From Pseudomonadota bacterium (GTDB lineage: Bacteria; Pseudomonadota; Gammaproteobacteria; Burkholderiales; Rhodocyclaceae): 64,000 nucleotides of DNA. Position 1 is the stretch's first letter. Every line of letters begins with the position of its first letter. This document shows positions 1 through 14,359 of the stretch, piece by piece. The stretch is taken from the NCBI GenBank assembly GCA_018262195.1, contig JAGTRS010000002.1, positions 62,001-126,000 of the forward strand, in the 5' to 3' direction. Position numbers and translations under genes: made by a program. Under the pieces are notes generated by a model that worked only from the letters and a program-made list of their open reading frames with translations, searched no databases and was not told the origin of the DNA.

Positions 1-3000
1 GTCAGCTACAGCGTTCTCGGCACACGGGCCGGCAACACGCAGGCAGATAACGGCCAACTGGTCGTCACCTTCCAGAAAGACAGCCACGGCGACCTGATGC
101 AAAACCGGGAAGCCTGGTTCGACACCTTCGGCGTCAGCAGCAAACCGGCGGCAGCCAGTTCGCCCACCCTGTTCCCCGACCTGCAGCGCTATGTCGCGGG
201 CATTCTCAGCGATGCAATGGCCGGCGGTGCGGGCAACAGCATCGCTATCACCAGCAATGGCGCGCTCGAGACGAAAAAGACCGGATCTCATGGTATCGAC
301 GCCTACAGCCAGGGCGGTACCGGCACCCGGGGGCGCGATGGCAGCATCGGTCACTCGGCCGGCGGCGGCGGAGCGGGCAGTAACGGCGGCGCGGTCAGCA
401 TTGCGGCCAGCGGCAGCATCGTCACGCACCTCGATGCTGCCGCTGGCATCGTCGCCGTCAGCGCTGGCGGCGAGGGTGGCGCTGGCGGCGATGGTGGCCA
501 CTGGCGCCATGGCCAGAAGGGCGGCACCGGCGGCACCGGTGGCACCGTGACGGTGAGCGGCAATGCCGACATCACCACCAGCGGCGCCGACGCGACCGGG
601 ATTTACGCCCTGAGCGTCGGTGGCAACGGCGGCGCCGGCGGCAGCGGCAGTGGCGCCATGCCGGGCGGCGGCGGCGGCTTCGGCGGCAAGGGCGGCGAAG
701 TGAGCGTCGTCGGCGGCTGGAACGTCACGACCGGCGGCGACTACGCCAGCGCCATCTGGGCCAGGAGTGTCGGCGGCAATGCCGGGGCCGGCGGCAGCGG
801 CGGCTGGCTGTTCGGCAAGCCCGGCAGCGGCGGTGACGCCAGCGATGGCGACAAGGTGACGCTGCACAGCAGCGGCACAATCGAAACCTCGGGCAAGTAC
901 GCCTACGGCCTCTACGCCCAGAGCGTCGGCGGCTTCGGCGGCCCCGGCGGAACCAGCTGGGGGCTGTTCTGGGCCTTCGGCGGCGACGCCAACAGTGGCG
1001 GCAGCGGCGGCGACGTGGATGTCCGGAACGAAGCGTCGGGCACCGTCAGCACCAACAACCTCTACAGCCACGGGATTTTCGCGCAGAGCATCGGCGGCGG
1101 CGGCGGCAGTGGCGGCGGCCGCTTCGGCCTGTTGGCCAGTGTCGGCGGCGACGGCGCCGCCGGCGGCAACGGCGGTATGGTGACCGTGGTTAACGAAGGG
1201 ACCATCAGTACCGGCACCGATGGCTCGCAGGCAATACATCGTGGCGACTACGCACACGGCATCTACGCCCAGAGTGTCGGCGGCGGCGGCGGCGACGGGG
1301 GCGGTGCCAACGGTCTGGTCGGCATCGGCGGCAACGGTTCGGGAACCAGCGACGGCGGCAAGGTCGAGGTCACCAATCGCGGCAGCATCGATACCTTCGG
1401 TCTGCAGTCCTACGGCATCTACGCCCAGAGCATCGGCGGCGGGGGCGGCGACGGCGGCCACTCCGGCGGGCTGGTCAGCATCGGCGGCGACGGCGGTGGC
1501 GGCGGCAATGCCGACACCGTCAAGGTCGTCAACGAAGGCAGCATCCATACCCGAAAAGACGAGTCGCACGCCCTCTTCGCCCAGAGCGTCGGCGGTGGCG
1601 GCGGCGCGGGCGGCGACGCGGTCGCTGTCGGCGCCGAAGCTTCGGTGTCTATCGGCGGCAAGGGTGGCGCGGGCGGCGATGGCTCGGACGTCACCGTCAC
1701 CAATACCGCAACCGGCAGCATCGTCACCAATGGCGAACGCGCCCACGCGATCTTTGCGCAAAGCATCGGCGGCGGCGGCGGCAACGGCGGCTTCGCCATA
1801 TCCGGTTCGGCCGGGAGCATCGTCAGTCTCAGCGTTGCCATCGGCGGCAGCGCCGGGACGGGGGGCGATGCCGGCGCGGTCGAGGTGCTCGGCGGCGGCA
1901 GCATCGACACCTTCGCCAAGCAGTCCTACGGCATCTTTGCGCAGAGCGTCGGCGGCGGCGGCGGCTCCGGCGGCTTCGCCATCGCCGGCAGCTACAGCGG
2001 CACCAAGGGCCTGAATCTCAGCCTCGGCGGCGAGGGCGGCGGCGGCGGCGTCGGCAAGACAGTCGATGTCGGCAGCGCAGCGGATCCCTTCTTTGGCAGT
2101 ATCCATACCCGCGGCGATTACGCCCACGGCATCGTCGCCCAGAGCATCGGCGGCAGCGGCGGCGATGGTGGTTTCGCCATCTCCGGCAGCGTGATGGGCG
2201 GCATCACGGCCAATATCTCGATTGGTGGCGACGGCGGCACCGGCAATGATTCAGATGTCGTCACGGTCCACAGCATCGGCAACGTCACCACGGATGGTGC
2301 CGGCGCGCATGCCATTCTCGCCCAGAGCATTGGCGGCAGCGGCGGCAACGGGGGTTTCAGCATTTCGGCCAGCCTGGCCGGCGGCACCGGTCTCGATCTC
2401 GGCTTCGGCGGCACGGGTGGCGGCGCCAGCGACGGCAATACCGTGAATGTCGGCAGCGCGACATCGCCTCTGGGCGGTACGCTCACCACCAATGGCGACC
2501 GCGCCCACGGCATCGTTGCCCAGAGCATCGGCGGCGGCGGTGGCAACGGCGGCGCCAGCATCACCGGCTCGTTGCTAAAACCGGCGTCGATATCTTTCGG
2601 CTTCGGCGGCGACGGTGGTGCTGGCGGCAAGGGCGGCCTGGTCAATGTCTATGTCGACAGCGATGTCACGACCTGGGGCCGGCAAAGCCACGGCGTCCTG
2701 GCGCAGAGCATCGGTGGCGGTGGCGGGACCGGTGGCATGGCGTTCTCCGGCGCTGTCTCCGCCTTCGGCGGCTTAACCCTGACCATGGGCGGCGACGGAG
2801 GTACCGGCAATTCGGCCGACACCGTGACAGTGGTGAACACCGGCCGCATCGAAACCTGGAACGAATACTCCTACGGCATCTTCGCGCAAAGCATCGGCGG
2901 CGGTGGCGGAGCGGGCGGTTCCAGCGGCGCGGTGATGGCCAATTTCAGCAGCCTGGTGCCGGTGCCCGAGCCCTATCCGAAGGTCGGCGTGAACATCGCG

Positions 3001-6000
3001 CTGACGCTGGGTGGCGATGGCGGCGAGGGCGGCAAGGCCGGCGACGTTGTTGTCACCAACGACGGCCGGATCATGACCCACCAGGACTACGCCTACGGCA
3101 TCCTGGCGCAAAGCATCGGCGGCGGTGGTGGTGATGGCGGCAGCAGCGTCGCCGCGACCGCCAACTTCTCCCTACCGGACGATCCCGGCGACGCAGGCGG
3201 CCAGGGAGGCAAAGCGGGTGGGCAGGTCGAAGTGAAGGTCGACTTCGCCATGGCCATCGGCGGCAAGGGCGCCAGTGGCAATACTGGCGGCAATGTGACC
3301 GTGACCAATCGCAACGCAATCGATACCTACGGTGTCGGCGCACACGGCATCTTCGCCCAGAGCGTCGGCGGCGGCGGCGGCGCGGGTGGCGACGCACGTT
3401 CCATGATCCTGAGCATCGATCCCTCCAACTGGCAGCCCGATGTACCTGAGGTGCCCGACCCCACCAGCTTCAGCGTCGGTGCGACGTTGAGCGTCGGCGG
3501 CCGGGGCGGCACTGGCGAGGATGCCGGTGCGAAGGTGGCGGTCATCAATACCGGCAGCATCGTCACGCGCGGCGCCGACGCCTTCGGCATCTTCGCGCAG
3601 AGCATCGGCGGCGGCGGCGGGGTGGGCGGCAGCGGTTACCACGGACTCGACTGGGAGGATTTCGGCGTCTCGGAAGACGTTTCCGAATTGCTCGACTTCG
3701 TGCTGCCGATCCAGGAAGAGGGTGACGTCAACATCACGGTGGGCGGTTCCGGTGGGGCTAGCGGCCACGGCAAGGAGGTGTCCATCAACCATACAGGCGA
3801 CATCACAACCACCGGCCAGGGTTCAGTTGCGGTGCTCGCGCAGAGCATCGGCGGCGGCGGCGGCATCGGTGGCATCGGCGCGATCGGTGATGCTGAGAGC
3901 AAGCAGCTCAGCTTCGGCGGTAACGGTGGTTCATCGGGCAACGGCGGACTGGTACATGTCGTCACCCGGGGCGAAATCGCCACGACGGGCGTCGTCGCCC
4001 ACGGCATTTTCGCGCAGAGCATCGGCGGTGGCGGCGGTTACGCCGGCAATGTCGACCTCGGCGTGACCGACTTCGGCAACGCCTTCGCTTTCGCCGGTGA
4101 TGGCGGCAATGCCGGCAACGGCGGCGAGGTGATCGTCGACAACGTCGGCAACATCATCACCCGCGGCCGCGGCGCCATGGGCATTTTCGCCCAGAGCGTC
4201 GGCGGTGGCGGCGGCTTGGGCGGCACCGTCGGCGCCGGCATCGGGTTGGCCGGCAGCGTCGGCGGCACTGGGGCAGGCAGCAACGTCACCGTCACACAGA
4301 CCGGCGATATCCGAACCTACGGTATCTCCGCCCACGGCATCGTCGCCCAGAGTAATGGCGGCTTCAGCGGCGGCATTTATACCGGTTCATCCGGTGTAGT
4401 CACGGTCAACAGTTCGGGCAATATCCTCGTCACCGGCGCTAACGCACACGGTATCGTTGCCCAGAGTCTGGGCGGTGCCAGCAACGGCAATGTGATCGTC
4501 AATATCAACGACGGTTCGGTCACCGGCGGCAGCGAAGCCGGCGTCGGCATCATGGTTCGGAATGGTGCCAGCAACGTCATTACCAACCGGGGTACGGTGT
4601 CCGCCTTGAGTGGCATGGCCCTGACCGGCGGCGCTGCTTCAGAGACACTCAACAACTACGGTACGCTGAACGGCAACGTTGATCTCGGCGGCGGCAGCAA
4701 CACGATCAACAACCTGGTCGGTGCGACATTCAACTCGCTGGCCAACATCATGATCGGCGCCGGGCGCAGCTTCACCAACGACGGCTCGCTCTCACCCGGC
4801 GGTTCGCGGGTACCACAGACCACCTTGCTGACCGGCAATCTGCAGCAGAATGCCGGCGGCGCCTACAGCGTCGACCTTAGCCTGGCAGGCAGAAGCAGCG
4901 ACCGGCTCGACGTGACCGGCGACGCCCAGCTTGGCGGCAGCATCCATGTAACGCCGATCGACACCGGCTTGGTCCAGATCGGCAGTTTGCAGCGCGTCGT
5001 CCTGTCAGCCACGGGCGGGGTCACCCCCAACGGCCTGACCTTGATTGCCCCGAGTTCGCCCATCGTCAGTTACGCCTTGAGCTATCCGAGCAGCAACGAA
5101 GTGGCCATTTCCAGCCATGTCGATTTCTCACCGGCCTCGCTGAACCAAAACGGCCGGCAGATCGGCGCCCACCTAAATGCGATTCTGGCAGCAGGCGGCT
5201 CCAGCAGCTTGGCACCGTACATCGCTACCTTGGTAAGCTTGCCGGATGAGTCTCGGCTACGCGTTGCCTATGAAAAACTGGGCCCGGGCGCGCTGGGCAC
5301 CTTGACCAATGCATCGACCACCTCCAGCCTGCAATTCAATGATGCGATGCATAGTTGCCGCCAACGCGATGGCGATTATCGCTTCATTCGTGAGGGAGAA
5401 TGCAGTTGGGTCCGCTTCGGTGGCAGCATCCGCGATCAGGAGCGGAATGAGCAGAACCCCGGATACCGGCAGGATGTCGTGACCATGGCCGGCGGCTTCC
5501 AGAAGGCGGTGCGCGAAAACCTGCACCTTGGCTTTGGCGCCTCCTTCCAGCAATCGGCCCTCAACTCGGTCTTTTCCGATGTCAATGGCGAACGCTTCGA
5601 GGGCGGCATGATCGTCAAGCAACGCTTCGACGCCACCCGCCTGTCCCTGTCCTTCAGCGCCGGCTATGGTCACTACAACACCCGGCGTCTGGTCGACATC
5701 GTCACGCCGGGCACCTATGCCCAGGCCAGACCGACCCTGTGGTCCGGCGCACTGCACGGCCGGATCAGCCACGACATCATGTCCAGTGAAAGTGCCTATA
5801 TCCGCCCGATGCTGGGCCTGGGTGTCTCCTACGTGTCACGCGATGCCTATGAAGAAACTGGGGCCGGCGATGCCAACCTGCGGGTCGAAAAGGCCAGCGA
5901 CACCTTCGTGTCGCTGCATCCGGCCATCGAGTTCGGCGGTGAAAATAGCGTCGGCGGCGAGGGCACCCTGCTCCGCCACTTCGTGCGCGTCGGCATGACC

Positions 6001-6231
6001 CAGTTCCTCGGCAACAATGAACGCCACGTCACCGCCAGCCTGGAAGGTGCGCCCTCCGGCGTCCAGCCATTCACGGTCACGACAAAGAGCGAGAAGAGCT
6101 ATGCCGACTTGGCCATTGGCGTCGACATCCTGCGCAAGAGCGGCACGACGGTTCGCCTGGAATACACCGGGCAGTTTTCCAACAACAGCTCGACCAATGC
6201 GATCGGGGTGAAGGTGGCAATGCCGTTCTGA
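1..6231 (+). CDS. Giant glycine-rich autotransporter (5' end outside the window)
   Basis: The reading frame is open from base 1, so the gene starts upstream; the first in-window ATG is at 97 but is unlikely to be the true start. The passenger carries about 22-24 copies of a degenerate unit of 50-90 residues. Each unit has a core like HGIFAQSIGGGGGxGG, preceded by a short I-x-T-x-G strand. This is typical of beta-helical type V passengers. A non-repetitive segment with an SPGGS motif follows. The last 270 residues or so look like a 12-strand outer-membrane barrel, ending in the terminal Phe of ...VAMPF. The likely role is a surface-exposed adhesin or biofilm protein secreted through its own barrel. 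No protease motif was recognised in the passenger. The gene ends at a strong terminator (6261). The family is well supported; the function is inferred. Confidence 0.9.
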   Translation, partial: VSYSVLGTRAGNTQADNGQLVVTFQKDSHGDLMQNREAWFDTFGVSSKPAAASSPTLFPDLQRYVAGILSDAMAGGAGNSIAITSNGALETKKTGSHGIDAYSQGGTGTRGRDGSIGHSAGGGGAGSNGGAVSIAASGSIVTHLDAAAGIVAVSAGGEGGAGGDGGHWRHGQKGGTGGTGGTVTVSGNADITTSGADATGIYALSVGGNGGAGGSGSGAMPGGGGGFGGKGGEVSVVGGWNVTTGGDYASAIWARSVGGNAGAGGSGGWLFGKPGSGGDASDGDKVTLHSSGTIETSGKYAYGLYAQSVGGFGGPGGTSWGLFWAFGGDANSGGSGGDVDVRNEASGTVSTNNLYSHGIFAQSIGGGGGSGGGRFGLLASVGGDGAAGGNGGMVTVVNEGTISTGTDGSQAIHRGDYAHGIYAQSVGGGGGDGGGANGLVGIGGNGSGTSDGGKVEVTNRGSIDTFGLQSYGIYAQSIGGGGGDGGHSGGLVSIGGDGGGGGNADTVKVVNEGSIHTRKDESHALFAQSVGGGGGAGGDAVAVGAEASVSIGGKGGAGGDGSDVTVTNTATGSIVTNGERAHAIFAQSIGGGGGNGGFAISGSAGSIVSLSVAIGGSAGTGGDAGAVEVLGGGSIDTFAKQSYGIFAQSVGGGGGSGGFAIAGSYSGTKGLNLSLGGEGGGGGVGKTVDVGSAADPFFGSIHTRGDYAHGIVAQSIGGSGGDGGFAISGSVMGGITANISIGGDGGTGNDSDVVTVHSIGNVTTDGAGAHAILAQSIGGSGGNGGFSISASLAGGTGLDLGFGGTGGGASDGNTVNVGSATSPLGGTLTTNGDRAHGIVAQSIGGGGGNGGASITGSLLKPASISFGFGGDGGAGGKGGLVNVYVDSDVTTWGRQSHGVLAQSIGGGGGTGGMAFSGAVSAFGGLTLTMGGDGGTGNSADTVTVVNTGRIETWNEYSYGIFAQSIGGGGGAGGSSGAVMANFSSLVPVPEPYPKVGVNIALTLGGDGGEGGKAGDVVVTNDGRIMTHQDYAYGILAQSIGGGGGDGGSSVAATANFSLPDDPGDAGGQGGKAGGQVEVKVDFAMAIGGKGASGNTGGNVTVTNRNAIDTYGVGAHGIFAQSVGGGGGAGGDARSMILSIDPSNWQPDVPEVPDPTSFSVGATLSVGGRGGTGEDAGAKVAVINTGSIVTRGADAFGIFAQSIGGGGGVGGSGYHGLDWEDFGVSEDVSELLDFVLPIQEEGDVNITVGGSGGASGHGKEVSINHTGDITTTGQGSVAVLAQSIGGGGGIGGIGAIGDAESKQLSFGGNGGSSGNGGLVHVVTRGEIATTGVVAHGIFAQSIGGGGGYAGNVDLGVTDFGNAFAFAGDGGNAGNGGEVIVDNVGNIITRGRGAMGIFAQSVGGGGGLGGTVGAGIGLAGSVGGTGAGSNVTVTQTGDIRTYGISAHGIVAQSNGGFSGGIYTGSSGVVTVNSSGNILVTGANAHGIVAQSLGGASNGNVIVNINDGSVTGGSEAGVGIMVRNGASNVITNRGTVSALSGMALTGGAASETLNNYGTLNGNVDLGGGSNTINNLVGATFNSLANIMIGAGRSFTNDGSLSPGGSRVPQTTLLTGNLQQNAGGAYSVDLSLAGRSSDRLDVTGDAQLGGSIHVTPIDTGLVQIGSLQRVVLSATGGVTPNGLTLIAPSSPIVSYALSYPSSNEVAISSHVDFSPASLNQNGRQIGAHLNAILAAGGSSSLAPYIATLVSLPDESRLRVAYEKLGPGALGTLTNASTTSSLQFNDAMHSCRQRDGDYRFIREGECSWVRFGGSIRDQERNEQNPGYRQDVVTMAGGFQKAVRENLHLGFGASFQQSALNSVFSDVNGERFEGGMIVKQRFDATRLSLSFSAGYGHYNTRRLVDIVTPGTYAQARPTLWSGALHGRISHDIMSSESAYIRPMLGLGVSYVSRDAYEETGAGDANLRVEKASDTFVSLHPAIEFGGENSVGGEGTLLRHFVRVGMTQFLGNNERHVTASLEGAPSGVQPFTVTTKSEKSYADLAIGVDILRKSGTTVRLEYTGQFSNNSSTNAIGVKVAMPF

Positions 6232-6374: not shown

Positions 6375-8468
6375 TCAGATGCCACCTAAGTCATCGACCG
6401 GGGTCGGGCGCCCGAACAGGTAACCCTGGAATTGCGTACATCCCATTGCCTGCAGGCGTTCGTACTGGGCCTCGGTTTCGACCCCTTCGGCCACCACGTC
6501 GAGACCGAATTGCTGGCCGATGGCGATCATGGTCCGGACCAGAATCGCATTGCTGCTGTCGATCGTCATTTCATGGACGAAAGAGCGGTCGATTTTCAAC
6601 TCGGTGATCGGTAGCTGCTTCAGGTAGGCGAGTGAGGAATAGCCCGTGCCGAAATCGTCGATCGAGAGCTGGAAACCCATTTCGCGCAAGCGCGAGAACT
6701 TGTGGAGTATCTCCTTGGTGTGCTGCAGCAGGACGCTCTCGGTCAGTTCAAGGCAAAGCAGCTCCGGTCGGAAGCGATAGCGTTCGAGCAGTTCGGTGAT
6801 GCGCGCGACACAGTCGCCGTCTTCGAACTGGCGGACGCTGACATTGATCGAAATACGCCAGTTTTTCCGCTCCGGATCGTTTTCCCAGGCTTTCAACTGG
6901 CGGACAGCCTGATGCAGTACCCATTGCCCAAGCGGGAGGATCAGGCCACTTTCCTCTGCTGCAGGGATGAAGATGCCGGGCGGAATCATGCCGTGCTCGG
7001 CATCCGGCCAGCGGGCGAGCAATTCGACACCGTAAATCTTCCGGCCACCGGAGGAGCCAATTTGCGGCTGGGCGTAGAGCTGAAGTTTTTCTTCTTCAAT
7101 GGCCCGCCGCAAACGGCTGATCAGCAGTGCCTTGGCTTCCGCCTGTTGTTGCAGCACGGGGTCAAAGAAGCGCACGCTGTTGCGCCCGGCATCCTTGGCT
7201 GTGTACATCGCCGCATCGGCGTAGCGCAACAAATCCTCGTTGGAGGCCGAGGCTCCATTGAACAGCGCAATGCCAATGCTGCCGGTGAGCCGGTAGTCAT
7301 AGGTATCGATCAGGTAAGGAGCCGCCAGTGCATGGAGAATGTTGCTGGCCGCCTGATAGGCCTTTTGCGTGGCTTCGCTTTCAGCGGATGAGAGATTTTC
7401 CAGCAGGACCACGAATTCGTCGCCGCCGAAGCGGCTGACGTAGTCGGCATCGCGCGTGTGCTGCCTGATCCGCCGCGCGGCTTCGATCAGCACCTTGTCG
7501 CCGACAGCATGGCCACGCGTGTCGTTGATGGTCTTGAAATGATCGAGATCGATAAACAACAGCCCGCCGAAATTTCCGCTTCGCCTGGCAGCGTTCAAGG
7601 CGTGGTCAAGTTGTTCGTTCAGATAGCGCCGGTTGGGCAGTTCGGTCAGCGCGTCGTAGTAGGCGAGGCGGCTGATCTCGGCTTCCTTTTCCTTGATTTC
7701 GGAAATGTCCAGGATGGCTGAAACGCGAATTTTCCGGCCGGCCAGGCTCAGGTCGCGACCGCGCAGGATGGCCCAGAAGACGGAACCGTCCCGGCGCAGC
7801 ATCTGCGCTTCATAGGGGGCCTGATTGGCATTCTTGATGACGCGGTGGACGTGGTCGCGCGATTGGGGGGCGATGAAATCGAAGGCACTCTTGCCGAGCA
7901 TTTCGTCGGCGCTGTAACCGAGGATTTGCGGCGCAACCTGATTGACCCGCACGCAACGACGATCTTCGTCATAGATGATCAGACCTTCGATGGTCGCATT
8001 GGTCAGCATCTCGAAAGTTTCCAGCGACGCCCGGCGTTCCTCGTCGACCGCCGACTCGAGCGCCTTCTGGCGAGTGATGTCGATGCCGACCTGAAGGCGG
8101 ACCCGGCGGCCATCGGGCCAGCGAAGGTGGCGGCCGTTCAGCAGATAGGTACGCTGGTTGATGCTGTTGGTGTTTTCCCACTCCACCAACTCATCGTCCT
8201 CTGGCTGGCTCGGTGAAGGCATACCTGGACAACCGGGGCAGATCTCGTCACGTCCGCGTTGCAGCGCCTGAAAGCATTTCTTGCCGACCACGTCACCGAA
8301 AGTGCGAACGACGCTGCCGTTGGCATAGAGAATTTCGTAAGTCGTCGTATCGATGGCGTAAACAAAGCCGCCCGCTTCGTTCAGGACGAAGTCGAGCAGG
8401 TGGGTGTTATCGACAATCCAGTCGGAAGCGGCGTTGGTAGTCTGCGGGCACATAAGCGATGGCGGCAC
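6375..8468 (-). CDS. PAS-PAS-GGDEF-EAL c-di-GMP signalling protein
   Basis: This 697-aa soluble protein combines diguanylate cyclase and phosphodiesterase modules. Domain order: an N-terminal PAS-like domain (about residues 20-140) containing a CPGCPGMP cysteine cluster, a second PAS (about 150-270), GGDEF (about 275-440) and EAL (about 450-697). The GGDEF active site reads RFGGDEF and has an RDAD inhibitory I-site five residues before it. The EAL domain keeps ELLARW, NVSVRQF, LELTES, DDFGTGYSSL and VVAEGVE, so both halves look catalytically competent. The N-terminal Cys cluster resembles PAS variants suspected of redox or metal sensing, but that is inference. The start is uncertain: a GTG at 8468 and an ATG at 8453 both lack a clear ribosome-binding site. 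It is a single-gene unit converging on the autotransporter. Confidence 0.93.
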   Translation of the reverse strand: MPPSLMCPQTTNAASDWIVDNTHLLDFVLNEAGGFVYAIDTTTYEILYANGSVVRTFGDVVGKKCFQALQRGRDEICPGCPGMPSPSQPEDDELVEWENTNSINQRTYLLNGRHLRWPDGRRVRLQVGIDITRQKALESAVDEERRASLETFEMLTNATIEGLIIYDEDRRCVRVNQVAPQILGYSADEMLGKSAFDFIAPQSRDHVHRVIKNANQAPYEAQMLRRDGSVFWAILRGRDLSLAGRKIRVSAILDISEIKEKEAEISRLAYYDALTELPNRRYLNEQLDHALNAARRSGNFGGLLFIDLDHFKTINDTRGHAVGDKVLIEAARRIRQHTRDADYVSRFGGDEFVVLLENLSSAESEATQKAYQAASNILHALAAPYLIDTYDYRLTGSIGIALFNGASASNEDLLRYADAAMYTAKDAGRNSVRFFDPVLQQQAEAKALLISRLRRAIEEEKLQLYAQPQIGSSGGRKIYGVELLARWPDAEHGMIPPGIFIPAAEESGLILPLGQWVLHQAVRQLKAWENDPERKNWRISINVSVRQFEDGDCVARITELLERYRFRPELLCLELTESVLLQHTKEILHKFSRLREMGFQLSIDDFGTGYSSLAYLKQLPITELKIDRSFVHEMTIDSSNAILVRTMIAIGQQFGLDVVAEGVETEAQYERLQAMGCTQFQGYLFGRPTPVDDLGGI

Positions 8469-8868
8469 GGCACATTAGCATTCGCTGATTATCTTGCAGA
8501 TTCGCGGATACGGGTTACCGAAATACATATTTTCAGACTCCCCAAGGATCGATCGGCATCTGGTTGCGGCTCTCCTTTCGAGTTTTCCCCTAATTGCCGC
8601 GCCAGAGCTGGCCACCTGCAAACTCGCCATCCTGTGATGACAAATTGGCATGCCATATCTTGTTGATTTAACAGCGATTCGACAGATAGCACCTTATCAC
8701 CATGCCATTTTGGCATGGCGCGTACTCGCCGCGCATCCTCCACGGCCAGCGCCAACCCATATAAAACAGGGACATACAAGCTGATTGCGGTATCTGGTTC
8801 ATTTCTTGCAGACAGCCACGGACGCATTCTGAAACTCCATATGTCATGCAAAAAACGAAAGGAAGACC
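8469..8868. promoter_or_regulatory. 400-bp intergenic region with paired TGGCAT palindromes
   Basis: There is no convincing gene here; the open frames on the minus strand run on antisense into the cytochrome gene. The visible structure is a perfect 10-bp palindrome TGGCATGCCA at 8646-8655 and an inverted repeat CATGCCA-TTT-TGGCATG at 8701-8717, with centres about 58 bp apart. A possible -10 element TATAAA lies at 8760-8765 without a good -35, which would suit an activator-dependent promoter for the redox operon. Operator and promoter roles are inference. Confidence 0.4.
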
Positions 8869-9183
8869 ATGAAACATCTTGCATCCGTCCTGATTGCCGC
8901 TGGCCTGCTCGCCGCATCCCCTGCTCAGGCGAATCTTGAACTCGCCAAGAAGAGCAATTGCATGTCCTGCCACACCGTCGACAAAAAACTGGTCGGCCCC
9001 GCGTTTGCCGATGTAGCCAAGAAGTATTCCGGCGACAAGGATGCCGCCAAGTCTCTGGCTGCCAAGGTCAAGGCGGGTACGAAGGGTGGCGTCTGGGGCC
9101 AGATCCCGATGCCGCCGAACCCCAACGTCAAGGATGCCGACATGGAAACCCTGGTCAAGTGGATTCTGGCTGGAGCCAAGTAA
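8869..9183 (+). CDS. Periplasmic class I cytochrome c (c551/c552 type)
   Basis: This 104-aa protein has a cleavable Sec signal (MKHLASVLIAAGLLAASPAQA) and a mature domain of about 83 residues. It contains one haem-binding motif, CMSCH, and a likely distal Met ligand in the GQIPMPPNP segment, the classic small monohaem cytochrome c layout. A ribosome-binding site AAAGGAAG lies just before the ATG. It is the first gene of the redox operon, 84 nt ahead of the ferredoxin start. It probably shuttles electrons between the membrane module encoded downstream and a periplasmic or terminal partner. Confidence 0.93.
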   Translation: MKHLASVLIAAGLLAASPAQANLELAKKSNCMSCHTVDKKLVGPAFADVAKKYSGDKDAAKSLAAKVKAGTKGGVWGQIPMPPNPNVKDADMETLVKWILAGAK

Positions 9184-9267
9184 GCGCAGCGAAGAAAGCC
9201 CCCGGGCAGACACAAGTTGCCCGGTTTGAACCAAGTCGAAACCACCATCCCCGTTCGGAGTAAAGAC

Positions 9268-10365
9268 GTGACCACCGCCAAGCCCCCTTCCATGGATTCC
9301 ACTCAAGAACAGCCATCCTATGCGGCCCAGCCGGCGTCGGCGGATCCCGCCAGCTGCGGTAGTTGCGCCCCTCAAACCTCGCGGCGCGATTTCCTCAAGG
9401 CCGGCGGCGCGCTGAGCCTGTCCTCGCTGATGGGCACGGCGGCACTGATGACTCAGTCCGACGATGCCCACGCCGCCGCCGAATGGGCGGAGCACTTCCA
9501 GAAGAACTACCGTCTGATGACTGACCAGGAAAAAGACGAAGCCCGCATGCGACTGGAAAAGCGCTACTCCGCCGAGTACGGCAAGCAGGTCAGCGTCGAT
9601 ATCAGCGGTCCGCAACCGGGTGTGCTAATGGGCTACGCGCTGAACATCCGCAAGTGCATCGGCTGCCGCCGCTGCGTGCATGCCTGCGTCGAGGAGAACA
9701 ACCAGTCGCGCGGCCCACGGCCGGGCGAGAAGATCGAGTGGATCCAGGTACTGCGCATGGAGCGCGGCAAGTTCGAAACGGAAAAGATGGACCACGGCTA
9801 TCCCGAAGGCCTCGGCATCCAGGTCGGCGGCAACGCCTACACGCCGGCCGGCCAGGTGCTTGAAGGCCAGTTCCACTACAACCCCGAGGCCGTGCCCGAG
9901 AAGGACGCGACCTACATGCCGATCGCCTGCATGCAGTGCGAGAAGCCGCCCTGCGTCAAGGTCTGCCCGGTACGCACCACCTACCGCGAAGGCGACGGCC
10001 CGGTGGTGATCGACTACAACTGGTGCATCGGCTGCCGCATGTGCATGGGCGCCTGCCCCTACTGGGCCCGCCGCATCAACGTCACTACCCCCGTCCTGCC
10101 CAAGGAGGCGATGAACCCGGTGACGCACTATCTCGGCAACCGGCCGCGCATGCGTGGCGTCGTCGAGAAGTGCCACTGGTGTCTGCAGCGCACGCGTCAG
10201 GGTCGCTACCCGGCCTGCGTCGAGGTCTGCCCGGTCGGCGCCCGCAAGTTCGGCAACCTGCTCGACCCGGAAAGCGAAGTGCGCAAGATCCTGGAGCGCA
10301 AGAACGTCTTCCGACTCAAGGCCGAGCTCAATACCTTCCCGAAATTCTTCTACTTCTACGATTGA
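9268..10365 (+). CDS. Tat-exported 4x[4Fe-4S] ferredoxin subunit (DsrO/NrfC/TtrB-like)
   Basis: I choose the GTG at 9268 because GGAG at 9257-9260 is well spaced before it; an in-frame ATG at 9217 would add 17 unlikely residues. The 365-aa protein has a twin-arginine signal (SRRDFLKAGG...) after a short N-region, so it is exported folded. Four cysteine groups follow: CIGCRRCVHAC, CMQCEKPPCVKVC, CIGCRMCMGAC and CHWC...CVEVC. These supply four [4Fe-4S] clusters, as in the electron-transfer subunits of DsrMKJOP, NrfABCD and tetrathionate reductase. The NrfD-like gene starts 10 nt later, so the two products should form a membrane-bound quinone/FeS pair. No molybdopterin catalytic subunit is encoded beside it. 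Confidence 0.92.
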   Translation: MTTAKPPSMDSTQEQPSYAAQPASADPASCGSCAPQTSRRDFLKAGGALSLSSLMGTAALMTQSDDAHAAAEWAEHFQKNYRLMTDQEKDEARMRLEKRYSAEYGKQVSVDISGPQPGVLMGYALNIRKCIGCRRCVHACVEENNQSRGPRPGEKIEWIQVLRMERGKFETEKMDHGYPEGLGIQVGGNAYTPAGQVLEGQFHYNPEAVPEKDATYMPIACMQCEKPPCVKVCPVRTTYREGDGPVVIDYNWCIGCRMCMGACPYWARRINVTTPVLPKEAMNPVTHYLGNRPRMRGVVEKCHWCLQRTRQGRYPACVEVCPVGARKFGNLLDPESEVRKILERKNVFRLKAELNTFPKFFYFYD

Positions 10366-10375
10366 GGAGCGAGCC

Positions 10376-11599
10376 GTGCAACAACTGATCCGTTTCGCTA
10401 CCGACTATGTCGGCTACGTCCTCAAGGGCGGCGCCAAGTTCTATGCCTGGATGGGCTCGCTTGCCGCACTCATCGCCTGCATGCTCTACGTGTTCTACCT
10501 GCAGAACACTGAAGGCCTGATCGTCACCGGCATGACCAGCCAGATCCACGACGGTCTTTACTTCGCCAACCTGGTCTTCCTGGTCGGCGTCGCGGCGGGG
10601 GCAGTGACCATCGTCTTCCCGGCCTATGTCTATCACCACGAAGGCATGCACAAGGTCAGCGTGCTCGGCGAGATGCTGGCGATCACTGCCGTCATCATGG
10701 TCATGGTCTTCGTCTTCGCCCACATGGGCCGCCCGGACCGCCTGTGGCACATGATTCCACCCTGGGGCATCTACAGCTTCTCGGCAATGCTGGGCTGGGA
10801 CGTGCTGGTGCTCAACGGCTACCTGTTCCTCAACTTCATCTGCGGCTTCTACTACCTGTGGTGCAAGTACACCGGCCAGCCCATCAACAAGAAATGGTTC
10901 ATCCCGCTGGTCTATGTCGCGATTGTCTGGGCGCTGTCGATCCATACCGTCACCGCCTTCCTGATCTCGACGATGCCCTCGCGTCCGATGTGGCACCACA
11001 GCATGATGCCGCTTCGCTTCATCTGCACGGCATTCGCAGCCGGGCCGGCGCTGATCATTTTGATCTTCATGATCATCCGCAAGAACACCCGGTTCTGGAT
11101 CGACGACAGCGCGATCAAGCTGTTGTCCACCATCGTCACCTGGTGCCTGGGCATAGCGATCTTCCTGACCCTGTCGGAAGTCGTCGTCGAACTTTATGCC
11201 CGCACCGAACACGCCAATGGCCTCTACTACCTGATGTTCGGCCTGCATGGCCTGACCGGGCTGGTGCCGTGGTTCTGGAGTGCGGTGATCCTGATGGTCA
11301 GCGCCTTCGCCTTGTTCCTGACCCCGTCGGTGCGCAACAACATGAAGCTGCTGCCCATCCCCTGCGCCATGGCCTTCGTCGGTATCTGGATCGAGAAAGG
11401 CATGGGGCTGATCGTCCCCGGCTTCATCCCGACCCCGATCGGCGAAGTCACCGAGTATTACCCCACCTTCGTTGAGTGGCTGATGACGCTGGGTATCTGG
11501 GCGTTTGGCTTCTTCATCCTGACCATCCTCCTCAAGGGTGCCATCGGCATCCTGCTGGGCGACATCAAGTTCGGCGGCCAGACCGCCACGGTGAAGTGA
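10376..11599 (+). CDS. NrfD/DsrP-family polytopic quinone-interacting membrane subunit
   Basis: The start is the GTG at 10376, with GGAG just after the upstream stop; the frame extending further upstream lies inside the ferredoxin gene. The 407-aa product has about ten hydrophobic segments. This size matches DsrP/HmcC-type NrfD proteins better than the 8-TM NrfD or PsrC (about 310-320 aa). Recognisable family segments include the IHDGLYFANLVFLVG region, AHMGRPDRLWHMIPP and the GWDVLVLNGYL helix. The family exchanges electrons between the quinone pool and a periplasmic FeS subunit, here the preceding gene product. It is followed after 10 nt by the multihaem cytochrome gene, so all are probably co-transcribed. 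Confidence 0.92.
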   Translation: MQQLIRFATDYVGYVLKGGAKFYAWMGSLAALIACMLYVFYLQNTEGLIVTGMTSQIHDGLYFANLVFLVGVAAGAVTIVFPAYVYHHEGMHKVSVLGEMLAITAVIMVMVFVFAHMGRPDRLWHMIPPWGIYSFSAMLGWDVLVLNGYLFLNFICGFYYLWCKYTGQPINKKWFIPLVYVAIVWALSIHTVTAFLISTMPSRPMWHHSMMPLRFICTAFAAGPALIILIFMIIRKNTRFWIDDSAIKLLSTIVTWCLGIAIFLTLSEVVVELYARTEHANGLYYLMFGLHGLTGLVPWFWSAVILMVSAFALFLTPSVRNNMKLLPIPCAMAFVGIWIEKGMGLIVPGFIPTPIGEVTEYYPTFVEWLMTLGIWAFGFFILTILLKGAIGILLGDIKFGGQTATVK

Positions 11600-11609
11600 G
11601 GCAAGGATC

Positions 11610-12437
11610 ATGAAAAAAATAGCGATCTACACGCTGGCCCTCGCCCTCTGCGGTGGCGCCCTCTATACCGCCGTCGCCATGGAGAAAGCGAAGGACGAGG
11701 CGGCCCAGGCTGCAGCGGAGCCGAAGGAGCCCGTCGTCTGCTTCGAAAGCCGCAAAGGCGCGACCGAAGTAACGCAACGCGAGCTCAAACCCGGCTTGCC
11801 CAACGTCAAGTGCTCGCCGACCACCGGGGCCGCACTCTGGTACGGCGACCCGTTCGATGGCACCGTGCCGATGGGCAAGATGCCGGGCCTGGAAAATCTT
11901 CCCGAAGGCCACGCGCTGGTCAAGCCCCGCTCGGAGAAGCTGGCCATCCTGCCGATGTGCGGCACCGCCTGCCATAACGGCGTCGGCCCGGCATTCAATC
12001 CGCCGACCCTGCCGAAAAACAAGAAGCCAACGCCGATCCCGGTCATGGAAAGCCTGGTGCCCGACCTCCAGAATCTGCAGCACGGCCGCGGCCGGATCTG
12101 GTGCCTGGATTGCCACCACACGACCAAGCGCGACAAGCTGGTTGATCACTTTGGCGACCCGATCAGTTTCGACCAGCCGCAACTGCTCTGCGGCAAGTGC
12201 CACGGCGACAAGCTGCGCGACTGGCGCGACGGCATCCACGGCAAAAGGATCGGCGAGTTTGCCAGCAACGGCAAGAAGCGCTGGTTCACCTGCACCGAGT
12301 GCCACAACCCGCACAACGTCCAGGATGGCGAGCGCAATCGCGGCTTCGTCCAGCTTCATCCCGAACCCGTGCCGCAGCTGCCGCACGGGATGAAGGACGC
12401 CAGGCATGAGCTGGTGCATCCCATCCCGCAGCACTGA
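11610..12437 (+). CDS. Periplasmic multihaem cytochrome c (three CXXCH plus one CX3CH)
   Basis: This 275-aa protein has an N-terminal hydrophobic signal or anchor (about residues 3-22). It carries three canonical haem c motifs: CLDCH (about 165), CGKCH (about 194) and CTECH (about 228). A fourth site reads CGTACH (about 117), with three residues between the cysteines. An HH pair after CLDC and several spaced His residues could act as distal ligands. It is an NrfD/DsrP-operon cytochrome, comparable in role but not in size to the DsrJ cytochrome, and could take electrons from the FeS subunit. The stop overlaps the next start by one base (TGATG). Whether the CX3CH site carries haem is unknown. 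Confidence 0.88.
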   Translation: MKKIAIYTLALALCGGALYTAVAMEKAKDEAAQAAAEPKEPVVCFESRKGATEVTQRELKPGLPNVKCSPTTGAALWYGDPFDGTVPMGKMPGLENLPEGHALVKPRSEKLAILPMCGTACHNGVGPAFNPPTLPKNKKPTPIPVMESLVPDLQNLQHGRGRIWCLDCHHTTKRDKLVDHFGDPISFDQPQLLCGKCHGDKLRDWRDGIHGKRIGEFASNGKKRWFTCTECHNPHNVQDGERNRGFVQLHPEPVPQLPHGMKDARHELVHPIPQH

Positions 12438-12865
12438 TGACGGACGCCACGCCCAAGCCTTCGCCGTCCCGGGGCGACCCCACCTGGGTCGCCCCGGCCC
12501 TGACGCGCGATGAGAAAACGCGCGTCGTCGGCAAGACACCTGTCTTCTTCGGCCCGCCGCTGGCCATCCTGACCGACGGCAAGCAGAACACCATGGAGAT
12601 CAGCGGCCGGCTCAACCTCGCCGCCGAGCGCTACCTGGAAATACTCAAGCATCACGGACTGGAACTCAGCGAACCGGAACGCCAGTGCCTGAGACACATC
12701 TGTAATACCGGCTTCATGTCGCCGCTGGAAATCCGCGAGCTGCCCATGGAAGTCGGAATGACCGCCTTCAACTGCGACGGACTGGACAAGGACGCACTGG
12801 CGCTGAAACTCGATGCAGCCAGCTTCGCCGACCTGGTCGTCATCGTCGAATCTCTGGGATTTTGA
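12437..12865 (+). CDS. Unknown 142-aa protein of the redox operon
   Basis: I do not recognise this protein. It starts on the TGATG overlap with the cytochrome gene, which implies translational coupling. It has no signal peptide, membrane segment or CXXCH motif. Two cysteines (RQCLRHIC) lie in a helical middle section and another (FNCDG) further on. The N-terminus is Pro-rich and probably disordered. Its fixed place between the multihaem cytochrome and the hemerythrin suggests a cytoplasmic assembly or regulatory role for the complex, but nothing in the sequence proves this. Confidence 0.75.
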   Translation: MTDATPKPSPSRGDPTWVAPALTRDEKTRVVGKTPVFFGPPLAILTDGKQNTMEISGRLNLAAERYLEILKHHGLELSEPERQCLRHICNTGFMSPLEIRELPMEVGMTAFNCDGLDKDALALKLDAASFADLVVIVESLGF

Positions 12866-12867
12866 GC

Positions 12868-13278
12868 ATGCCAAAACGAACACATTGGATTCCGCATTTC
12901 AGCACCGGAAATGCCACGCTGGATGAACAGCACCAGCAACTGCTGGCGCAATGCAACGCCCTGGCCGACTGCCTGGACAATCCCGGCGTGACCGGCGGGA
13001 ACAGCTTTTCCGGCATCCTCGAAGGGCTATTCGCCAGCGTTCGCGAGCATTTCGCGATGGAGATGGAATTGCTCGCCGGCAACGGTTACCCCATGCTCGA
13101 CGAGCACAAGCAAGAGAGCGAGGAATTCGACTACCTGGCCTCCGAGATCATCTCGACCAAAAACTTCGACCAGGAAGAACTCCAGACCTACCTGGCCTTA
13201 TGGTGCACCGGGCACATCGTGGGAACCTCGGGACGGCAGCGACCCTATCTGGAGCGGCAGACAGAATCGGCCAGCTGA
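12868..13278 (+). CDS. Hemerythrin-like protein lacking two iron ligands
   Basis: Starting from the ATG at 12868 (a TTG at 12862 is also in frame), this 136-aa single-domain protein has the bacteriohemerythrin layout. Five of the seven canonical di-iron ligands are present: His22 (DEQH), His61 and Glu65 (HFAME), His80 and His116 (GHIVG). The remaining two are replaced: the second His of HxxxH is Ser84 (HKQES), and the bridging Asp of HxxxxD is Ser121 (HIVGTS). Both losses fall on the same iron in the known structures, so it may bind one metal, another cofactor or none. It is the last gene of the operon, directly after the 142-aa protein, and ends near the hairpin at 13353. Confidence 0.88.
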   Translation: MPKRTHWIPHFSTGNATLDEQHQQLLAQCNALADCLDNPGVTGGNSFSGILEGLFASVREHFAMEMELLAGNGYPMLDEHKQESEEFDYLASEIISTKNFDQEELQTYLALWCTGHIVGTSGRQRPYLERQTESAS

Positions 13279-13348: not shown

Positions 13349-13377
13349 AAAAACGGCGGGGTTGATAACCCCGCCGT
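13349..13377 (-). terminator. Hairpin terminator shared by converging genes
   Basis: Arms 13353-13363 and 13367-13377 form an 11-bp perfect stem with a 3-nt loop. Read on the minus strand it is followed by TTTTT, so it terminates the PEP-CTERM gene best. It can also stop the redox operon on the plus strand. Confidence 0.85.
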
Positions 13378-13435: not shown

Positions 13436-14254
13436 CTATGCATGCGTTTTTCTGCGACGTCGGGCCGCCAATCCCAAGACGCCGGCACCCAACAAAGCCA
13501 GCGAGCCGGGCTCGGGCACATACTTGTCAGGATCGACCTTGATGCTGTCATTGGCGCAATTCTCGGTCCAATGGATATCAAAAGCCGAGCCATCCCAGCC
13601 GGCACCGCGAAGCAGGTCGAGATTCACGCTCATTTCGTAAAAGTAATGCCCATCGTTGACATGGGCGCCATAACCCGTTTTCGCGATCGTCGAGAAGGCC
13701 AGCGATGCATCGCCGATCTTCGTACCAGCGCGAATTGATGTGGGATTGGCCAAGTCGGGGTGCGTCGGATCGTTCTGACCGGCGCTGTTCCACAAACCGT
13801 AGTACCACTGGGAAACCTGATAAACGCCCCCCTGAACCCCAAAGGTATCTGCAGCCGAACCCGATGCCTGGCGGTAATTGATACCAAGTTCATAGCTGCC
13901 ATTGCGACCAAAATCGATCGCAAAATCCCCGGCACCATAGTTGTTGCCGGAGGTCGGCGTGATCGGGTTATGCCCGGTCGCCAGCGCAATATAGAGCGTG
14001 TTGCCGAGAATAGTGGCAAACAGGGCTTCCGCGTCGTAAGCCTGACCACCATAACCAGGAGACAGATAGGCTCCCGTTGAACCGGTTTGATCCTCAACGG
14101 CGCGATGGATACCGGCGTTGGCAACCGTCCAGGTCGTCTTGCCACCGGGAGTCAGCCAGTCGTCGATATTGCCGTCAACGACAATCCCCGCACAGGCCGG
14201 AGCGGAGACAGCGGCACCTAGCAGGACAAGCGTGATGATGTTGACGTTTTTCAT
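13436..14254 (-). CDS. PEP-CTERM sorted exported protein
   Basis: The start is the ATG at 14254, with GGGA upstream; the open frame to 14341 adds residues with no family character. The 272-aa protein begins with a Sec signal (MKNVNIITLVLLGAAVSAPACA) followed directly by IVVDGNIDDWL. It ends in a textbook PEP-CTERM signal: VPEPGSLALLGAGVLGLAA followed by RRRR. Such proteins are processed by an exosortase and released to the surface or matrix. The body is rich in Gly, Asn and Asp, with no enzyme motif that I recognise; the N-terminal segment resembles surface carbohydrate-binding-like domains only in a general way. No exosortase gene is in the window. It stands alone between two terminators. 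Confidence 0.9.
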   Translation of the reverse strand: MKNVNIITLVLLGAAVSAPACAGIVVDGNIDDWLTPGGKTTWTVANAGIHRAVEDQTGSTGAYLSPGYGGQAYDAEALFATILGNTLYIALATGHNPITPTSGNNYGAGDFAIDFGRNGSYELGINYRQASGSAADTFGVQGGVYQVSQWYYGLWNSAGQNDPTHPDLANPTSIRAGTKIGDASLAFSTIAKTGYGAHVNDGHYFYEMSVNLDLLRGAGWDGSAFDIHWTENCANDSIKVDPDKYVPEPGSLALLGAGVLGLAARRRRKTHA

Positions 14255-14359
14255 GGTGACATCCCGGAACAATGGGTCAAAGTTGACGCCTGAAGTTTGC
14301 GGCCACCCGCCATTTTTGCCTGTGAAGTACCTCACAAGCATCTGATTATCCCGAATAAA

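Follow-up and report, generated by a model that had tools for sequence, protein, structure and literature searches.

Several known respiratory systems join an iron-sulfur (FeS) protein to an NrfD-like membrane protein. NrfBCD of Escherichia coli combines this pair with a multihaem cytochrome, NrfCD being annotated as a putative menaquinol-cytochrome c reductase, and DsrMKJOP of the sulfur-oxidiser type contains a DsrO/DsrP-like pair. In the passages of one paper that deal with them, Cbc4 (CbcSTU) of Geobacter sulfurreducens is named a menaquinol:ferricytochrome c oxidoreductase, SirCD of Shewanella oneidensis is presented as an FeS + NrfD quinol dehydrogenase that can replace CymA for several acceptors, and both are described without a dedicated catalytic subunit (PMC11434368). 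Here we analyse an operon of this kind in a 64,000-nucleotide stretch of a Rhodocyclaceae genome (the window: contig C14, 62001-126000; assembly of 4.23 Mb in 89 contigs). Its six same-direction genes, all confirmed on the + strand at 8869-13278 as the original prediction from the sequence had placed them, encode a small cytochrome c, a DsrO-like ferredoxin, an NrfD/DsrP-like protein, a tetrahaem cytochrome, a protein here called DUFx and a hemerythrin-like protein. We consider it probable, at about 70%, that a membrane quinol:cytochrome c oxidoreductase module is formed by the core, i.e., the FeS protein, the NrfD-like protein and the tetrahaem cytochrome.

By gene content, i.e., cytochrome c, FeS and NrfD-like proteins with no catalytic gene, the module is of the Cbc4 type. 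As far as the published account describes it, Cbc4 has the same set, its membrane protein being NrfD-like/cytochrome-b-type, whereas DUFx, the hemerythrin-like protein and a CX3CH haem site are features of the module family. NrfBCD differs in that it serves NrfA. SirCD, which belongs to a sulfite-reductase locus, is without the tetrahaem/DUFx unit. DsrMKJOP is set apart by DsrM, DsrK and DsrJ, which the module does not have, and by the three haem sites of DsrJ against four here. Since the module most likely works like Cbc4, SirCD and NrfBCD, an FeS + NrfD pair without a catalytic subunit is no new kind, and the locus cannot be called an undescribed respiratory system, as had been proposed. The design is known; what is distinctive is the CX3CH site, a relative of the anti-CRISPR protein AcrIE10 and an optional S-oxide-reductase-type partner that is sometimes encoded in the operon. 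We found no paper on the betaproteobacterial module family in the open-access literature.

The open frame of the FeS protein begins at TTG 9217 and ends at 10365, and GTG 9268, which is preceded by GGAG, is the better start. The protein has a twin-arginine translocation (Tat)-type motif, SRRDFL, and 16 cysteines that are invariant in 81/81 aligned rows, and therefore four [4Fe-4S] sites, which bears out the predicted Tat-exported four-cluster ferredoxin. The NrfD-like protein matches PF03916 at 109.8 bits against a Pfam cut-off of 25.8 and has about ten hydrophobic segments by hydropathy, in agreement with the predicted ten-helix protein. The family match, the 8-10 or so helices and the four-cluster FeS partner that mark an NrfD-family quinone module are all present. 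We infer the following route: the NrfD-like subunit would oxidise quinol, the FeS subunit in the periplasm would relay the electrons along its four Fe-S clusters, and the tetrahaem cytochrome would take them up on its four haems and hand them on to soluble cytochromes of the periplasm. In the Azonexus/Dechloromonas group the recipient would presumably be the small cytochrome c whose gene opens the operon. Acceptors would depend on the host; in the source genome, a pentahaem/DMSO (dimethyl sulfoxide)-reductase-family system on another contig, C86, would be one likely acceptor.

The multihaem cytochrome contains three CXXCH motifs and one CX3CH, giving four likely haem sites. The first site is CX3CH in 65/67 cytochromes of loci L041-L108, the exceptions being L077, where the stretch is missing, and L107, which is a partial match only. 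In the relevant passages of one study, CX3CH beside a membrane segment is reported for ImcH, a quinol-oxidising cytochrome, and likewise for two CymA homologues of Rhodoferax ferrireducens, members of a quinol-oxidising family (PMC6295460). This parallel favours quinol oxidation, without proving it. In a sister family from other genomes of the order (L184-L186), in which FeS and NrfD proteins are 57-59% and 43-44% identical to those of the module, the tetrahaem cytochrome has four canonical CXXCH motifs, one of them in the same alignment region as the module's CX3CH; small proteins lie upstream, one with a Tat-like start, and tblastn found no DUFx match in this family.

The conservation of the module was assessed in 68 homologous loci that one pattern scan retrieved from GTDB genomes, the NrfD-like protein being the single query; remote relatives are under-represented in this sample. 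The loci extend at most 8 kb per side, many are cut by contig ends and some share an organism (by title, L067 and L100), and the gene maps are rough, neighbour genes having been called by a greedy open-reading-frame (ORF) picker and identified either visually or through BLAST against a small set of references. By tblastn, the FeS gene is present in 66, NrfD (the query) in 68, the cytochrome in 67, DUFx in 63 and the hemerythrin-like gene in 52. FeS-NrfD-cytochrome-DUFx is contiguous in 57/68 loci, whose titles are nearly all betaproteobacterial, and in 37 of the 57 the hemerythrin-like gene follows at <400 nt. The other eleven chains are shorter, some from contig ends and some (L070) from a start codon misplaced by the script. 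No DUFx was found in five loci; two of them, L074 and L078, stop short of where it would be expected, which is not the case for L094, L100 and L107. Such recurrence goes beyond chance. All six parts are present in the window, and the small cytochrome c falls outside the conserved set: a homologue occurs in 5/68 loci and is adjacent in four (L044, L045, L050 and L085), i.e., it is a local addition to the operon. Module hosts include Azonexaceae, Rhodocyclaceae, Sterolibacteriaceae and Sphaerotilaceae, among others, by tree labels, and none of seven NrfD pattern matches in viral contigs was confirmed. One contig titled Desulfobulbus (L070) bears a betaproteobacterial module; this title looks wrong because the genome, G177, has the same molybdoenzyme coordinates as G004, which belongs to the window's genus.

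The operon was originally reported to have no catalytic molybdoenzyme subunit. This is true of the window operon, in which no catalytic gene was found, and a molybdoenzyme of the DMSO-reductase family was seen within the same locus in only 4/68 loci (<=8 kb per side, many contig-cut). A stand-alone quinone:cytochrome c oxidoreductase, as first suggested, is the best reading. The absence of a molybdoenzyme does not hold for the biology at large. Module and DMSO-reductase-family enzyme lie in one operon in L085, L098, L099, L100, G013, G034 and G083 (G083 and L100 being one organism), and L198, L199 and L201 likewise have the module downstream in an operon headed by DMSO-reductase-family genes. 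The shared order is pentahaem cytochrome, DMSO-reductase-family enzyme, DmsB-like protein, TorD-like chaperone, FeS, NrfD, tetrahaem cytochrome and DUFx, ending with a histidine kinase and a sigma-54-type regulator; DUFx was not detected in the shared operon of L100/G083. In the source assembly the same enzyme, 84% identical, is on C86 with pentahaem-, DmsB- and TorD-type genes. No membrane anchor gene was seen by eye beside the enzyme in the shared operons or on C86, no DmsC search having been run. The source genome (G000) is 99.8% complete with 9.95% contamination, and statements on its single contigs call for care because of the latter; C86 likely belongs to the source organism, since an enzyme 98% identical is encoded in the congeneric genome G047. 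A strictly stand-alone filing is ruled out by the shared operons and the C86 copy.

These operons lead to a different proposal, which we hold tentatively and at somewhat less than even odds: the module would be the electron-input half of a split enzyme in which quinol electrons pass through FeS, NrfD and tetrahaem cytochrome to the pentahaem cytochrome and on to the molybdoenzyme, the latter probably a periplasmic methionine sulfoxide (MetO; S-oxide) reductase that repairs an adjoining methionine (Met)-rich repeat protein. Beyond the shared operons and the C86 gene cluster, the proposal draws on co-occurrence: among 149 relatives, the enzyme is found in 7/10 genomes with a close module (E 1e-180 or less; G118, at 45% and cut by a contig end, scored as without) against 20/139 others (Fisher p 2.6e-4, kinship ignored), which falls to 5/7 against 19/~68 within the genus (p 0.03; genus size from handle numbers). 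A Met-rich repeat frame was found in 27/41 enzyme loci searched (no shuffled control), some with a visible signal peptide, and the independent cases are fewer, since L100 = L118 = L144 and L126 = L153. Met-rich repeat proteins of the MSGMEGQKG type were seen near the DmsA-like enzyme in L098-L100, L115 and L118-L153. The protein is similar in concept to the hypochlorite scavenger of Azospira, which is also Met-rich, and Melnyk reportedly described, in 2015, a periplasmic Met-rich peptide paired with a methionine sulfoxide reductase. Because such a pairing is known, methionine sulfoxide reductase is our leading guess for the DMSO-reductase-family enzyme. A serine of the enzyme aligns with Ser147 of DMSO reductase, which we take to be the Mo ligand. 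Reduction of protein-bound MetO by a DMSO reductase has been published, as the abstracted part of that work indicates (PMC7402097). The best enzyme model, DMSO/selenate reductase A, scores 601 and 611 bits against a cut-off of 777.7; the enzyme is therefore not filed as DmsA. In L115, the molybdoenzyme at 8446-11016 has the N-terminal cluster motif C-x3-C-x3-H (CDHNCGSRH), with His where DmsA-type enzymes have Cys.

Distribution speaks against the split-enzyme proposal. At a limit of E 1e-100, and with 49 of the 50 loci given (from the 68) searched, L045 being left out, the enzyme was matched in 18/49 module genomes and not in 31/49; G047, a single contig at 99% completeness, has the enzyme and no module. 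Since 31/49 module genomes gave no match to the enzyme and 20/139 module-less relatives have it, the link is loose, many of the genomes being incomplete, and an obligate half of a molybdoenzyme is ruled out by the 18/49 and 7/10 counts. In the tree, the L098-type rows make up a single clade (100/100), and L085 joins L083, which is cut upstream, in a second one (100/99) inside the large group; module and enzyme would thus have come together either twice, or once and then separated in some lines. Where the operon is shared the link is real; elsewhere it is optional.

Several points also weigh against the quinol:cytochrome c oxidoreductase reading itself. Close module copies are sporadic, in 10/149 relatives with the source genome included, and the enzyme counts just given, i.e., no match in 31/49 module genomes and a match in 20/139 relatives without a close module, tell against it as well. 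The predicted structure of the tetrahaem cytochrome is unusable (predicted local distance difference test score, pLDDT, 38), and for this reason the haem count is taken from motifs. No biochemistry of the module family was found in the open-access literature, and the direction of electron flow is not readable from sequence. NrfD complexes such as Qrc and Nhc, which share the FeS/NrfD pair, run as quinone reductases, according to the portion of a paper that treats them (PMC8076601). These comparisons allow the reverse direction, in which the module would act as a cytochrome c:quinone reductase and periplasmic oxidations would feed the quinone pool. In one genome of the sister family (L186) bc1-like genes were seen nearby by eye, which is in line with such a role; against it, operons are shared with reductase-type, i.e., DMSO-reductase-family, genes, and no outer-membrane oxidase was noticed beside the mapped modules, no model search for one having been made. 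We regard the reverse direction as unlikely, and retain the quinol:cytochrome c oxidoreductase reading for the core.

The DsrP model score alone would place the module with DsrMKJOP. The NrfD-like protein scores 382 bits on NCBIfam DsrP (cut-off 350), and DsrO is the best NCBIfam match of the FeS protein at 173 bits (cut-off 200). The DsrP cut-off is passed by 7/300 genomes of the order, the six besides the source genome all carrying FeS, NrfD, cytochrome and DUFx. The same model gives 434 bits to L107 (Cloacimonadota, 8004-9230), with no dsrMKJ visible in 13.9 kb and a molybdoenzyme-like frame nearby on the opposite strand by eye, and 405 bits to L204 (Flammeovirga plasmid protein, 9784-11001), with no dsrMKJ visible and NapD, molybdopterin oxidoreductase and cytochrome c3 as annotated neighbours; the DsrP of the dsrJOP-type locus L018 gave no match at E 1e-20. 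Because it passes L107 and L204 without matching L018, the DsrP model is judged unspecific, and public DsrP labels on genes like these two are likely wrong. The best dsrA match in the genome reaches 49 bits against a cut-off of 392.85 (dsrA only; dsrB not searched), and dsrM, dsrK and dsrJ are not in the operon and were not seen by eye beside the mapped module loci. The genome has three NrfD proteins, i.e., that of the operon, one adjoining a tetrathionate-reductase-like gene and one adjoining a hydrogenase, none of them DsrP of the sulfur-oxidiser type. More distant NrfD/DsrP proteins of relatives, seen in dsrJOP context, are 21-25% identical to the module NrfD. In a tree of 100 rows, twelve sulfur-oxidiser DsrP form a separate clade far from the module on long branches; the comparison covered DsrP of the sulfur-oxidiser type and not that of sulfate reducers. 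As the outgroup branches are very long and the tree is rooted at its midpoint, conclusions are drawn from the within-module clades and this separate rDsr clade only. Filing under DsrMKJOP on the NCBIfam score is ruled out by the unspecific model and the dsrA result, and a remnant or relative of DsrMKJOP in sulfur metabolism is very improbable.

Other named families fare no better. QrcC reaches 153.5 of 400 bits and QrcD 36.6 of 570, with no QrcA or QrcB partner in the operon; the NrfC model reaches 108 of 377.6 bits, no NrfA-like gene is in the operon, no NrfD model match was listed, and the branch leading to NrfD of E. coli is very long. The original prediction was to fall if the complex were nested inside a known Dsr, Qrc or Nrf clade and its catalytic subunit encoded elsewhere in the genome; the C86 enzyme supplies the second half, and the first did not materialise within the families compared, the NrfD-like protein lying outside the sulfur-oxidiser Dsr clade and the Qrc and NrfC models falling far under their cut-offs.

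DUFx matches no Pfam or NCBIfam family above cut-off, in keeping with its first listing as an unknown protein; the present analysis adds that it is a homologue of AcrIE10. Its AlphaFold model shows a mostly confident helical fold (mean pLDDT 83; first 40 residues poor). The first four of 49 Foldseek matches were AcrIE10 (probability 1.00, E 1.7e-3 to 1.1e-2, TM 0.60/0.72-0.74), none of them under 0.001, and the fifth match was at E 1.7. A DUFx profile found AcrIE10 at E 1.4e-5, with the next protein at 0.45 (hmmsearch), and for the single sequence AcrIE10 was the sole match up to E 10, at E 0.005 (phmmer). The phage family phrog_14350, of unknown function, matched 25/40 members at E 0.1 (best 7.6e-6, window 0.0074), and its one match in 274 genomes of the class was the DUFx of G544. 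The two proteins share a fold and a significant profile match; DUFx differs in lying in a respiratory operon and having a conserved FFGPPLA stretch, whereas AcrIE10 is a type I-E anti-CRISPR which, according to passages of two papers, dimerises and prevents Cascade from assembling by acting on Cas7e (PMC13131331, PMC12740422).

Cas7e, the target of AcrIE10, was matched in 0/10 close module genomes (G004 and G022 being <80% complete), which is no surprise by itself because only 11/139 other relatives have a match, and tblastn at E 0.01 found no plasmid or phage homologue of DUFx. On these two results a working anti-CRISPR was judged unlikely. None of 33 DUFx pattern matches in viral contigs was confirmed, a BFVD search returned nothing under E 1, and PADLOC on three proteins gave no match. 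Of the five DUFx matches among 369 genomes of the class, one is a weak fragment interrupted by a stop; leaving aside the source genome, the three genuine matches adjoin module genes, so that in this set no DUFx was seen away from the module. DUFx would be a cytoplasmic helper. Its acidity (mean isoelectric point 5.3, 73 rows) and its Tat-substrate neighbour make a chaperone/assembly role, i.e., FeS assembly or Tat-quality control, the first guess; regulation of the operon is retained as the second because in two divergent genomes, L210 and L211, DUFx is oriented away from the FeS gene.

The hemerythrin-like protein matches its family, as predicted, and is degenerate. Homologues are not always adjacent to the core. 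A bacteriohemerythrin is defined by seven di-iron ligands (5 His, Glu, Asp), two of which are lost across 56 rows, i.e., the His column at reference position 83 is His in 2 and the Asp column at 122 is Asp in 1, and the window protein has Ser and Ser there; a further His column is His in 27/56, and the remaining four are kept in 50-55. Canonical oxygen binding is doubtful.

Table 1. Features of the operon and its 3' flank in the window
Feature	Coordinates	Strand	Evidence
Small monohaem cytochrome c, 104 aa, signal peptide, CMSCH	8869..9183	+	PF00034 45.8 bits
Tat-exported DsrO-like ferredoxin, four [4Fe-4S] sites, 365 aa from GTG	9268..10365	+	16 Cys invariant; NCBIfam DsrO 173 bits
NrfD/DsrP-like integral membrane quinone protein, ~10 helices, 407 aa	10376..11599, GTG start	+	PF03916 109.8 bits; NCBIfam DsrP 382 bits; hydropathy
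Tetrahaem cytochrome c, N-terminal hydrophobic stretch, 275 aa	11610..12437	+	Haem motifs CGTACH, CLDCH, CGKCH, CTECH
DUFx, helical, without signal peptide, 142 aa, AcrIE10 homologue	12437..12865	+	Foldseek, hmmsearch, phmmer
Hemerythrin-like protein, without two of seven di-iron ligands	12868..13278, ATG start	+	PF01814 37.4 bits; ligand columns
Stem-loop 3' of operon, possible terminator, 11 pairs	13353..13377	+	Folding z -4.17; 0/200 shuffles equal it

The genes of the core are tightly spaced, as claimed: with GTG 9268 as start, the small cytochrome c is followed by a gap of 84 nt, and the subsequent gaps are 10, 10, -1 (a 1-nt overlap) and 2 nt. Convergent genes flank the stem-loop. Terminator-like sites around the operon number 5 against 3.9 expected from shuffles, which is not above chance, and no sigma-70-type promoter was found near the operon, where 1.3 were expected. 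The upstream neighbour is a GGDEF/EAL-type gene on the minus strand (6375-8468). By eye, the gene that converges on the operon (13436-14341, minus strand) encodes an exported protein with a PEP-CTERM-like tail (VPEPGSLALLGAGVLGLAARRRR), and a 2044-aa ORF at 97-6231 has Gly-rich repeats and an autotransporter-like C-terminal part.

A more speculative picture, which we think improbable as a whole, is that AcrIE10 derives from a cellular family whose normal work is to assemble or regulate a respiratory complex, an FeS/NrfD quinol oxidase, and was co-opted by mobile elements, and that, where module and molybdoenzyme share an operon, they act together as one methionine sulfoxide reductase driven by quinol, with the Met-rich repeat protein serving as an oxidant sponge that this chain regenerates. 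For annotation, a DsrP model that passes the module's membrane subunit would wrongly imply sulfur metabolism. If our interpretation is true, a quinol-oxidising branch would be added to the respiratory chains of these bacteria, and its catalytic partner could share the operon or sit on another contig; AcrIE10 would gain a chromosomal relative with a conserved operon, and the origin of this anti-CRISPR would become testable.

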